From: Phycisphaeraceae bacterium
GTDB taxonomy: Bacteria; Planctomycetota; Phycisphaerae; Phycisphaerales; UBA1924
Assembly (NCBI GenBank): GCA_019636495.1
Contig: JAHBXL010000002.1
Span: 186,001 to 250,000 of the forward strand
Length of the DNA stretch: 64,000 bases
Direction: 5' to 3'
How positions within the stretch are numbered: the stretch's first letter is position 1; the number at the start of each line of letters is the position of its first letter. Shown here in pieces: positions 56,407 to 61,608 of this stretch. The notes under the pieces are model-generated. The model was not told where the DNA came from. It worked only from the letters and a program-made list of their open reading frames with translations, and made no database searches. Position numbers and translations under genes: made by a program.

Positions 56407-56509
56407 GGGCGATCCTCCACTGCCGGCGCGCGACGGCTCGCCGCGCACGGACAGGGAAGTATACGGAAAGCCGGCGGCGATGTTGCCGGTTCTCGCCTTC
56501 CGCAGCGCT

Positions 56510-56887
56510 TCACTGCTGCGCAAGGCTCTGGTACAGCATGTTCGCGTTGCCATCGGGATCGAAGAACGTCGCGAGTTTCACCATCCCGGGGAACGTGAGC
56601 GTGTCGCCATCGAACTTCACGCCGCGGCCTTCGAGTTGCTTGCGCGCGGAGTCCACATCTTTCACGCCCCACGTCGGCGTCGGACCTCCGGCCTTCACCT
56701 TCTCAACCTGCGAGAAGCCGATGTTCACGCCCTTGATGTGCGTCGACATCTCGCACCAGCCGATGTGCTCCACGTCGTAGAGCAGGGTGAAGCCGAGCAT
56801 TTCCGCATACCACGCGGCCGAGCGTTTGCGGTCCGCCGACTGAACCGAGATCGTGAGTCCGCCATCGAGGCCGATGTTGATCGCCAT
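56510..56887 (-). CDS. VOC (glyoxalase/bleomycin-resistance) family protein
   Basis: 125 residues, two beta-alpha-beta-beta-beta halves. LTISVQSADRKRSAAWYAEMLGFTLLYDVEHIGWCEM starts the domain and FFDPDGNANMLYQ ends it, the latter being the usual C-terminal metal-side strand with Glu replaced by Asn-Met. The ATG at 56887 has AAGGA upstream. Divergent from the HxlR-type gene at 56963, sharing the symmetric promoter at 56924-56962. Exact reaction cannot be stated. Confidence 0.83.
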   Translation of the reverse strand: MAINIGLDGGLTISVQSADRKRSAAWYAEMLGFTLLYDVEHIGWCEMSTHIKGVNIGFSQVEKVKAGGPTPTWGVKDVDSARKQLEGRGVKFDGDTLTFPGMVKLATFFDPDGNANMLYQSLAQQ

Positions 56888-56923
56888 GGTGGAGTTCCTT
56901 CGAAAGTGGGGCGTGTCGGAGCC

Positions 56924-56962
56924 TTGACGCAGAAAGTATAGCAACTATACTTTCTGCGTCAA
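56924..56962. promoter_or_regulatory. Perfectly palindromic bidirectional promoter/operator
   Basis: An 18-bp arm TTGACGCAGAAAGTATAG, a 3-nt centre and the exact complement make a 39-bp palindrome. On each strand it reads TTGACG, 16 bp, TATACT (each box matching five of six sigma70 positions), so one element carries two overlapping, opposed promoters. Rightward, transcription would start only about 5 nt before or at the GTG (56963) of the regulator; leftward, about 40 nt before the ATG of the VOC gene. The symmetry is also what a dimeric regulator would bind. Confidence 0.75.
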
Positions 56963-57523
56963 GTGGCCTCCGACCGTCTCATCACCCTCTGCCATCGCGC
57001 CTGGGCCTTGCCGGTCCTGGCCGAGATGCACCGTGCCGATGCCGCGGGAATGGGCGGCGCGAGACTGGTCGCGCTCTCTTACACGTTTGGTGCGAGCCCG
57101 AACGCGATCCGGTCTTCGCTGGATCATCTCATCGCGCTCGGGCTCGCCGCGCCCAACCCCGGGCACGGCCATCCGCTCCGACCCGAGTACATTCTCACGA
57201 AACGCGGTGCGCGGCTTGCGCCCGCGTGCGCTGCGCTGGATGACTCGCTGCTCTTGTTTCGGCTTCGTCAGGAGGCGATGCACAAATGGGCACTGCCGAC
57301 GATCCACGCCGCGGCGGTGTTGAGGCCGGCTCGGTTCACCGCGCTGGGCGATCAACTCCGGGGCATCACGGACCGTGCGCTGTCGCAGACGCTCAGGTTG
57401 CTGACGGCCGGGGGGGTTCTGCGGCGAGAGGTTCGAGAGGGCTTCCCGCCAGTTCCGCTGTACGACCTGACCGGCACGGGCGAGGCGATTGCGCCGTTTC
57501 TTGAGCCGCTCGCGGCGGGTTAG
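56963..57523 (+). CDS. Regulator with two tandem HxlR-type winged helices
   Basis: 186 residues. The first half (HRAWALPVLAEMHRADAAG...ASPNAIRSSLDHLIALGLAAPNP...EYILTKRGARL) and the second half (MHKWALPTIHAAAVLRPARFTALGDQLRGITDRALSQTLRLLTAGG...LYDLTGTGEAI) both match the HxlR pattern (kW...iL..L...RF..L...l.gis...L...L..L...G...R......v.Y.LT..G). GTG start at 56963 directly abuts the palindrome with no Shine-Dalgarno, suggesting a leaderless mRNA. It likely controls itself and the divergent VOC gene. Ligand unknown; the HxlR family often responds to electrophiles or formaldehyde. Confidence 0.75.
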   Translation: MASDRLITLCHRAWALPVLAEMHRADAAGMGGARLVALSYTFGASPNAIRSSLDHLIALGLAAPNPGHGHPLRPEYILTKRGARLAPACAALDDSLLLFRLRQEAMHKWALPTIHAAAVLRPARFTALGDQLRGITDRALSQTLRLLTAGGVLRREVREGFPPVPLYDLTGTGEAIAPFLEPLAAG

Positions 57524-57709
57524 GGCCCCGCGCAGGGCCTGTGGCGGCCCTCCTGCCGGAGCGTTGTCCTTTGCCCTCCGGGGCGGCTACCATCCATCGA
57601 TCTCTGTATCGCTGCGTCCGTCAGGTTCGGCCGCACATTGGATCGCCGACGCTTTCTCTTGCCCGAGTTCAAGCAGCCGGTTTCAATCTCAAGGGCAGGA
57701 CAAAGCATC

Positions 57710-58126: not shown

Positions 58127-58218
58127 CCATAGACTGTGTTTGAATGGATGCGATCCGGCACATCCTTCCAACCGCGCTGCTCCAGCCACCCACGGCGAAC
58201 ATCGCCGCGAGGCCCGAG

Positions 58219-59820
58219 ATGGCCCAGACCAAGGTCGATCAGACCCTCGAGCCGACCCATCGGATCAAGTTCGATGGCTCGGACCGGATCTCGCACATCT
58301 CGTTCTCGCCCGATGGCCACACGGCGTATTGCCTTGTGCCCGGGCAGCGCGTGGACCTGTGGGCGCTGGGCCGCGAGTGGTGGCCGGAACTTCTCGGCGG
58401 CGTGCTCACGCTCCTGGTGCTCGCGTATCTGCTCGTGCTGCTGCGCGTGCTGCGCCGGCCGCAGCGCCGTGGCGCGCCGCACTGCCGAAACTGCAACTAC
58501 GACGTCACGGTTCAGGCGCCTCACTCGGTCCTGCCGCGGCGGGAACGCCAGCAGCCTGCGCGGGGAACGCTGTGCCCGGAGTGCGGCGCCGACCTCTCGC
58601 GCAAGCGGCCGAGGCGCGGAAGAACGACCGCGAGGCGGCTGCTCGTGCCCACCGCATTCATCGCACTCTCCGCCGCGGCGTACATCGGCCTGCACATCGC
58701 ACGCGTGCCGCGAACAGGGCCGCCCAACAGCGGGCCCGAAGTGTGGTCCTCATGGGTGGATGACTTCGCCGAGCAACACCAGCTCGCGGCGATTCTCAAG
58801 CACAAATCACACGTCGCCCAGATCATCCGCGTTGACACACAAACCGGCACGATACTTGGCACACTGCGCACCCTTCGCGGCTATCCCGCTGGCGACATGC
58901 GAGTCTCGCCCGATGGCCGATTCATCGCGGTGGTTGGCGACAAGACCACACTTCTGTGGATCCGGACATCAAACGGTCGAACGGTCGCGCGGACGACGGG
59001 CGCGGAGTTTCAGAGCGGAATGCTCGATGTAGAGTGTGTCCTTGGAATCAGCGGGCCGGTGGGATCGCAGTGGGTGTACTACGCGGCGATCTATCTGGAT
59101 TCGGACTTGTACCGGCTGTTGCGTTGGCGGCCCTCCGATTCCAAGCAAGAAGTGGTCATTGAACAACCGTTGTTCAAACGCGAGTTTCCGGGGGGCGGGG
59201 CTTCATGGTCCCCGCGTCAATACGCACTGCTGCACCGACCGGATGGAGTCGCGACGGTGTCGACGCCGCTGATTCGGGAGGCAATCCGCTCCAAACAACT
59301 CGAACTGACCATTCGTAGCCCCATCGAGCGCGGGGGCGGCATCGAAATGACCGTACCGGTACCCAGCCAAGCTGTGTCGCGTCGTATAGTGCCCAGCCCG
59401 TATGGACTGCAGGTGTTTCTCAATGCCGCGCAGAATGGAATAGTGTCGTTCAGCACCCAAACCGGGCAGCAACTCGACTCGTTCAGTTGCGACCAGCCAA
59501 CTGATCGAAGCTCAATCTATCAGATCGCCATTTCGCCCAACGGCGAGTTGCTGTACGTGCCAGGGTTTCCCAACTCCTTCCTGGTGCGAGACCTCATGCG
59601 GGAGCGGTGGGCCGCGAAACTGAAGTTGCCCGAGCACTTTGTCGCGCCGAGTCCCGAGCCCTCCCAAGATGGTCGCTGGCTTGCGGTCATCGCGTTTGAA
59701 GGAACTGTGTCCGGCAACGCGCCCAGAAACCTGCACGAGCTCTTTCTGTTCGACGTCAGCGCACTCGGCAAAGAACCCCCGACCGGGAGTCCATCCGAAG
59801 ACGCACCCGCGGCACCGTGA
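58219..59820 (+). CDS. Membrane protein with zinc ribbon and beta-propeller-like domain, copy 1
   Basis: 533 residues from ATG 58219 (ATG 58144 is possible, but the similarity with copy 2 begins close to 58219). Residues 1-50 resemble a single propeller blade (ISHISFSPDGHTAYCLVPG). A membrane helix (58-78) precedes a zinc ribbon (CRNC 89-92, CPEC 119-122), a second helix (about 141-160) and a long extracytoplasmic part with propeller-type strands (DMRVSPDGRFIAVVGDKTTL and TLLWIRTSNGRTVA). The similar copy 2 begins 187 nt after its stop. Role unknown. Confidence 0.7.
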   Translation: MAQTKVDQTLEPTHRIKFDGSDRISHISFSPDGHTAYCLVPGQRVDLWALGREWWPELLGGVLTLLVLAYLLVLLRVLRRPQRRGAPHCRNCNYDVTVQAPHSVLPRRERQQPARGTLCPECGADLSRKRPRRGRTTARRLLVPTAFIALSAAAYIGLHIARVPRTGPPNSGPEVWSSWVDDFAEQHQLAAILKHKSHVAQIIRVDTQTGTILGTLRTLRGYPAGDMRVSPDGRFIAVVGDKTTLLWIRTSNGRTVARTTGAEFQSGMLDVECVLGISGPVGSQWVYYAAIYLDSDLYRLLRWRPSDSKQEVVIEQPLFKREFPGGGASWSPRQYALLHRPDGVATVSTPLIREAIRSKQLELTIRSPIERGGGIEMTVPVPSQAVSRRIVPSPYGLQVFLNAAQNGIVSFSTQTGQQLDSFSCDQPTDRSSIYQIAISPNGELLYVPGFPNSFLVRDLMRERWAAKLKLPEHFVAPSPEPSQDGRWLAVIAFEGTVSGNAPRNLHELFLFDVSALGKEPPTGSPSEDAPAAP

Positions 59821-60006
59821 ACCTCACCCCCCCAACGCTTTCACCTTCCGAATAGTCCCCAGGCATTCATCAAACGCCCGCGGGGCTCAGCGCAAGGGCG
59901 AGCCCGCAACGCCTGATAGACTTCAACTCCCGTGCACACGTCCTGGGCCGACAACTCCGCCGCGCAGGTTCAGTCCTCAGCGGCGAATATCGCCGCGAGG
60001 CCCGAG

Positions 60007-61608
60007 ATGGCCCAGACCAAGGTCGATCAGACCCTCGAGCCGACCCATCGGATCAAGTTCGATGGCTCGGACCGGATCTCGCACATCTCGTTCTCGCCCG
60101 ATGGCCACACGGCGTATTGCCTTGTGCCCGGGCAGCGCGTGGACCTGTGGGCGCTGGGCCGCGAGTGGTGGCCGGAACTTCTCGGCGGCGTGCTCACGCT
60201 CCTGGTGCTCGCGTATCTGCTCGTGCTGCTGCGCGTGTTGCGCCGGCCGCAGCGCCGTGGCGCGCCGCACTGTCGCAAGTGCAACTACGACGTCACGGTT
60301 CAGGCGCCTCACTCGGTCCTGCCGCGGCGGGAACGTCGGCACGCCGCGCCGGGAACGCTGTGTCCGGAGTGCGGCACCGACCTCTCGCTCAGGCGGCCGC
60401 GCCGCGGCCGGTCGCTGGCGCGGCGGATGCTCGTGCCCTCGGTGCTGCTTGGAGTGTGTGCCGCGGGCTACATCGCGTTGCACGCTGCGCGTGTGCCGCG
60501 AACGGGTCCGCTGAGCAACGCGCCGGAAGTGTGGTCGGCGTGGGTGGATGACCTTGATGCGCGGCACAAACTCGCGGCGATTCGCAAGCACCAAACCGCG
60601 GTGGCCCGGATTATTCGGGTCGACACACGGACCGGCGAGATAGTCGGCGCGTTGCGGACGATGCGGGGGTATCCCATGGGCGACATGCGGGTGTCGCCCG
60701 ATGGTCGATTCATCGCGGTGGTTGGGGATCCGACAACCCTGCTGTGGATCCGCACATCGAACGGGCGGACGGTGGCGCGGACGAGCGGTGGGGAGTTCCA
60801 CGGAGGGGGTGTTCATCCCGAGTTTGTCGTCGGGTTCAGCGGACCGGCGAACTCGCCGTGGGTGTTTTTCGCCGCGATCGATCTCCCCACGGGTACGAGC
60901 CGTTTGGTTCGTTGGCGACCCGGCGATGGAGTCCAGCAGGTCGTTATCGAAGAGCCGGCGTACGAGATGGCCTATGCGAACGGGATGACGGCGCACCATG
61001 TGCGCCGGTACGCGTTGCTGCATTGGCCGGAGGGAATCGCGACAGTCTCGGCGCCATCGTTCACCGAGGCGCATCAGACGTCCCGGTACGAACTGACTGT
61101 TCGCGGCGATGTCGAGCACGGCTCAGAGGTCGTCCGCGTGATTCCGGTGAGAGATTCGTTTGTGTTGATGAGCCCGCTGGTTCCCTCGCCGGAGGGACAA
61201 TCGCTGTTTCTCAGCGCAAGTTCAAGGGGGATCATCGGCATCGACCTGCGGACGGGCGAAACACTGGGCACGGTGAGGCCCGCTCTCACGCAGCCGCCGA
61301 ACCAGGAGTTGGCCATGTCGGCGGATGGTCAGCGACTCTTTGTGCCGGTGTTCCCGAACTCGGTCCTTGTGCGCGACATCTCACAAAGGCGATGGGTCGC
61401 CGAACTGAAGTTCCCGCCGGAGTTCATCGCGCCGTCGCCTGAACCCTCGCCGGATGGCCGATGGCTGGCGGTGGTGGCTTTTCACTCGAACCGCGCGGGC
61501 GCCGGGGCAAGGTACCTGCACGAGTTGTTTCTGTACGATCTGAGCGCGATCGGCAAGGAACCCGCCAGCGCGAGTTCACCCGACAGGGCGGGCGAGGGAC
61601 GGCCGTGA
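60007..61608 (+). CDS. Membrane protein with zinc ribbon and beta-propeller-like domain, copy 2
   Basis: 533 residues from ATG 60007, same layout as copy 1: blade-like N-terminus, helix, ribbon (CRKC, CPEC), helix, propeller region. The first about 110 residues are almost identical to copy 1, while the remainder agrees only moderately. A GTG at 59932 would extend it by 25 residues that copy 1 does not share. Downstream lies the GCACGGGC repeat and fumC on the other strand. A gene duplication with later homogenisation of the 5' part is the simplest reading. No function can be given. Confidence 0.7.
   Translation: MAQTKVDQTLEPTHRIKFDGSDRISHISFSPDGHTAYCLVPGQRVDLWALGREWWPELLGGVLTLLVLAYLLVLLRVLRRPQRRGAPHCRKCNYDVTVQAPHSVLPRRERRHAAPGTLCPECGTDLSLRRPRRGRSLARRMLVPSVLLGVCAAGYIALHAARVPRTGPLSNAPEVWSAWVDDLDARHKLAAIRKHQTAVARIIRVDTRTGEIVGALRTMRGYPMGDMRVSPDGRFIAVVGDPTTLLWIRTSNGRTVARTSGGEFHGGGVHPEFVVGFSGPANSPWVFFAAIDLPTGTSRLVRWRPGDGVQQVVIEEPAYEMAYANGMTAHHVRRYALLHWPEGIATVSAPSFTEAHQTSRYELTVRGDVEHGSEVVRVIPVRDSFVLMSPLVPSPEGQSLFLSASSRGIIGIDLRTGETLGTVRPALTQPPNQELAMSADGQRLFVPVFPNSVLVRDISQRRWVAELKFPPEFIAPSPEPSPDGRWLAVVAFHSNRAGAGARYLHELFLYDLSAIGKEPASASSPDRAGEGRP

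Follow-up and report, generated by a model that had tools for sequence, protein, structure and literature searches.

A perfect palindrome between divergent VOC and HxlR genes of a Phycisphaeraceae bacterium is probably an operator across two opposed promoters

The window analysed here is a stretch of 64,000 nucleotides on contig C12 of the 4.08-Mb genome of a Phycisphaeraceae bacterium. In this window we found a perfect palindrome separating two divergent genes, one encoding a VOC/glyoxalase-fold protein on the minus strand and the other a tandem-domain HxlR regulator on the plus strand (Table 1). Among solved structures, the VOC protein weakly resembled glyoxalase/bleomycin-resistance proteins (5ump, E 4e-5; also 5umx and 5w27), which bind enediyne antibiotics. 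This similarity is a hint that the gene pair deals with a toxic compound. The regulator scored 52.2 bits against PF01638, for which the curated cut-off is 20.8 bits, and belongs to the HxlR family. HxlR proteins usually consist of a single dimerising domain of about 110 aa, an architecture that the family model does not require. The window protein departs from it, its predicted structure (pLDDT 93.4) showing a pair of winged-helix units on a single chain, and its best PDB matches, which span about half of the protein, were HypR, YodB, QsrR and HxlR-type regulators. It is thus a fused variant inside the HxlR family, and one chain could place two reading heads on one palindrome. A thiol-switch regulator of the YodB type was considered and rejected, as the protein has no conserved (invariant) cysteine. 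Elsewhere in the window, two adjacent ORFs of 558 aa each (58144-59820 and 59932-61608) are closely similar with long identical stretches, apparently the result of a recent tandem duplication.

Table 1. Coordinates of the palindrome, the predicted promoters and the adjacent genes in the window.
Feature	Position	Strand	Details
VOC/glyoxalase-fold protein gene	56510-56887	-	ATG 56887; Pfam PF00903, E 2.9e-8
Imperfect outer extension GTCGGAG ... CTCCGAC	56915-56974		folding, z = -9.9
Perfect palindrome	56923-56963		19-bp arms, centre CAA; repeat search and expectation calculation
Predicted HxlR promoter	56924-56951	+	-35 TTGACG 56924-56929, -10 TATACT 56946-56951, start ~56958
Putative conserved operator core AAAGTATAG-CAA-CTATACTTT	56933-56953		conservation in VOC/HxlR intergenic regions of relatives
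Predicted VOC promoter	56935-56962	-	-35 TTGACG 56962-56957, -10 TATACT 56940-56935, start ~56928
Tandem-domain HxlR regulator gene, 186 aa	56963-57523	+	GTG start; Pfam PF01638, E 5.7e-14, two stretches

The palindrome, CTTGACGCAGAAAGTATAG-CAA-CTATACTTTCTGCGTCAAG, was delimited by a repeat search, with perfect arms at 56923-56941 and 56945-56963. The first-pass annotation had described a 39-bp element at 56924-56962, which was present as described, but its 18-bp arms were drawn too short and each extends one base further outward. The right-hand gene, said there to start at the very next base, does adjoin the palindrome; its GTG, however, begins on the last base of the right arm (56963), and the gene therefore touches the palindrome rather than follows it. 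These arms are the longest among all perfect inverted repeats in the window, the runner-up having 12 bp per arm (7 bp shorter), and the expected number of such perfect repeats calculated from base composition is about 4e-5 per 64-kb window. Strand folding showed that imperfect symmetry continues beyond the perfect arms, the outer GTCGGAG and CTCCGAC having a 3-nt offset, and predicted a hairpin of -41.7 kcal/mol for the palindrome.

A promoter scan recovered TTGACG-N16-TATACT on each strand, as had been claimed, and these two were the only sigma70-like sites within 56500-57600 (about 1.1 kb; mean of shuffled sequences 0.0). The start positions assume the usual 7-bp gap between -10 and start. 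On the VOC side, five of six -35 positions match, the spacer is 16 nt and the -10 reads TATACT. The -10 hexamers of the two strands do not overlap and lie 5 bp apart; between the predicted starts there are about 30 bp, and the plus- and minus-strand transcripts would diverge without overlap. In the predicted VOC transcript, about 40 nt of leader including a Shine-Dalgarno-like GAAGGA come before the ATG; the predicted HxlR transcript has only about 5 nt ahead of its GTG, being nearly leaderless and without a Shine-Dalgarno sequence. Both promoters could presumably not hold polymerase simultaneously, and the occurrence of the motif on both strands supports the earlier proposal of opposed, mutually exclusive promoters on one site.

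The strong hairpin might also suggest an RNA structure, either a terminator or a leader element, formed in read-through transcripts, and the location of two further copies of the palindrome (described below) at the ends of convergent genes would fit such a function. We consider this explanation extremely improbable, as the predicted transcripts begin within the ends of the element and cannot form the hairpin, and conservation among relatives tracks GTATAG/CTATAC and not pairing of the outer stem. Neither a U-tract nor a terminator-like site was found at the element, and an intrinsic terminator (GC-rich stem plus U-tract) was rejected on the missing U-tract.

For the comparison with relatives, loci were chosen by their HxlR protein only, searched in 61 genomes. 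All 21 full-length HxlR relatives (window included) were accompanied by a divergent VOC gene. With the window excluded, the core AAAGTATAGnnnCTATACTTT was found in the VOC/HxlR intergenic region of 17 of 20 relatives, matching at 13-18 of 18 core positions and above all 300 dinucleotide shuffles of the region; the remaining three intergenic regions showed no clear core. A separate, independent scan for the exact core in a genome collection with one genome per species gave 24 matches, nine of which lay within a divergent VOC/HxlR pair (seven in Planctomycetota and two in the alphaproteobacterial Kordiimonas and Minwuiaceae), and the named genomes with such a pair were mostly Phycisphaerae/Planctomycetota. 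A looser core, GTATAGNNNCTATAC, was present in 21 of 250 related genomes, and 18 of the 21 loci examined (window included) were at a VOC/HxlR pair. Across relatives hardly any variation occurs in the right arm, the left arm being conserved more loosely, and judged by this conservation the putative operator is the inner 21 bp only. In the Minwuiaceae (L027) and Kordiimonas (L029) pairs the HxlR ATG follows directly after the operator core (CTATACTTTATG), an arrangement near that of the window and pointing to very short leaders there.

Among 33 non-redundant pairs, the -35 matched on average at 4.9 of six positions on the VOC side and at 3.6 of six on the HxlR side, compared to about 2.5 in shuffles, and neither mean was reached by any of 1000 shuffles. 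This pooled set includes loci chosen by the core itself, and the core statistics were therefore taken from the protein-chosen set. The VOC side usually carries TTGAC in relatives and the HxlR side mostly a weaker -35; TTGAC on both sides at usable spacing occurred in the window only, among the 33 pairs. Several to many relatives have a VOC-side spacer of 15 nt, which is short for sigma70. The complete -35 to -10 palindrome, earlier regarded as an unusual design, is thus unusually perfect here, but this perfection is peculiar to the present genome and not general, and the principle is known from acrA/acrR and bioA/bioB.

Taken as a whole, the element is best explained as an operator of the adjacent HxlR regulator across two opposed promoters, both of which would be repressed, and we estimate the probability of this reading at roughly three in four. 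QsrR, a fold relative of the regulator, binds the consensus GTATAN5TATAC, and the operator core fits this consensus with GTATA-N5-TATAC at 56936-56950. The palindrome CAGTATCCTCGAGGATACTG used in an HxlR-DNA crystal contains AGTAT...ATACT half-sites (PMC7835342), and the window sequence AGTATAG-CAA-CTATACT has the same half-sites. This fit to HxlR-family DNA and the retention of the core between divergent VOC and HxlR genes support the earlier suggestion that the regulator blocks both promoters. The minus-strand promoter would drive the VOC protein and the plus-strand promoter the regulator, each using the whole element, with polymerase sitting in one orientation at any time. The two winged-helix units would bind GTATAG-nnn-CTATAC, which in each promoter covers the spacer and the -10 region, and the bound regulator would repress both promoters, including its own. 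It would be released by an inducer, probably some small molecule of toxic or electrophilic nature that the VOC protein handles or sequesters.

Dual repression is not certain because HxlR-family proteins can be activators, as described for B. subtilis HxlR and its operon (PMC7835342). The regulator might activate the VOC promoter while repressing its own, with the bound protein correcting the short spacer of several relatives in the manner of MerR-type activators, and the 15-nt VOC-side spacers of many relatives would agree with this. We regard activation as quite unlikely, since the VOC promoter of the window should work unaided and the -10 regions lie under the operator, a position from which bound proteins usually block. 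Against the operator with dual repression we count the three of 20 relatives without a clear core, the 15-nt VOC spacers, the HxlR leader of about 5 nt and the copies between convergent genes. The VOC/HxlR element looks functional and its mechanism is of a known type; exceptional are its perfect symmetry and its extra copies.

The symmetry likely arose when a template switch inside an already existing imperfect palindrome copied one arm onto the other, a documented route to a perfect palindrome (PMC7202029, PMC8794818). Since it is the TTGAC-bearing arm on the VOC side that is conserved, the arm on the HxlR side is probably the copy, and by becoming a perfect one it would have given the promoter of the regulator a full -35. 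In the congeneric genome G001 the HxlR gene and a segment of about 1 kb with the pair are missing and the flanking genes are retained.

Two near-copies of the palindrome, (T/C)GACGCAnAAAGTATAGnnnCT(A/C)TACTTTnTGCGTC, were found elsewhere in the genome of the window, at C33:99818-99853 (L003 1501-1536) and C30:96709-96745 (L009 3710-3746). Both lie between convergent genes, encoding a glycosyltransferase and a sugar-transferase-like protein in the first case and an LPG-synthase-type membrane protein next to a thioredoxin-like one in the second, and in three of their four arms a TGA at the outer end serves as stop codon. Genome G001 has both convergent gene pairs (84-85% identity), and the palindrome is absent at both junctions. 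When the six arms from the window site and the two near-copies are compared, one of the 17 positions varies freely and the other 16 have no more than a single change each. Six arms being few, this pattern is only a hint that the sites are bound by a protein and are not copies in drift. The promoter idea alone leaves the convergent-gene copies unexplained. Their near identity, their absence from the same places in G001 and the presence of Y1 transposases in the genome of the window would be consistent with a dispersed hairpin repeat (REP/MITE-like) that lies at the promoter by chance. This is very unlikely, with just three close copies, none near Y1 transposase matches; because many other genera have kept the core at their VOC/HxlR pair, the copy in the window would be an inherited operator and not an insertion, and for this copy the repeat reading is largely refuted. 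An origin as a REP element moved by a RAYT transposase, which would call for many copies and for some of them flanking the transposase gene, was likewise rejected, the Y1 transposases being unlinked to the three close copies. A half-arm scan of viral contigs gave 11 matches, all of them single half-arms.

A weaker fourth site, TGTATAGCAACTATACA, was located at C14:49422-49442 (L010 3423-3443), downstream of a kynureninase gene, with the ATG of a possibly leaderless kynurenine-monooxygenase-like gene a few bases further on. This palindrome is absent from G001 and is a possible second target of the regulator. One might imagine that the operator was symmetrised in this lineage and then seeded at convergent junctions and before the kynurenine-type monooxygenase gene as decoy or new regulatory sites, amounting to regulon growth by hairpin copying, but this scenario is speculative and rather unlikely.

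For the VOC/HxlR gene pair, which is widespread in Planctomycetota, occurs outside this phylum as well and is apparently unstudied, these results provide a computationally derived operator. A literature search on HxlR with glyoxalase and an operator returned nothing. The results further provide a natural and testable instance of two promoters competing over the same DNA, and a comparison between the fully symmetric site of the window and the asymmetric sites of relatives would reveal the effect of symmetry on the balance of regulator and target. Among known systems, the HxlR/DUF24 family operators (HxlR, QsrR, YodB) share winged-helix regulators on palindromic DNA, the DNA of the HxlR crystal having AGTAT...ATACT half-sites (PMC7835342), whereas the regulator described here unites two HxlR domains in one fused protein and has no conserved cysteine. 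Quasipalindrome template-switch products resemble the window site in that an imperfect palindrome is corrected to a perfect one (PMC7202029, PMC8794818); here the correction is deduced from comparison only. In bidirectional promoters a bound polymerase excludes the opposing one (PMC12825309). As in acrA/acrR and bioA/bioB of E. coli (PMC12825309), a single DNA segment would serve two divergent genes, but there both directions use a common -10 and have their starts within 10-23 bp of each other, and here the distances between -10 elements and between predicted starts place the site, a perfect mirror, outside the bidirectional promoters sensu Warman et al. (shared or overlapping -10, starts 10-23 bp apart). 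Repressors acting on opposed promoters are already known, the divergently encoded AcrR shutting both directions of acrA/acrR (PMC12825309), and the window site would add another, unusually perfect case.
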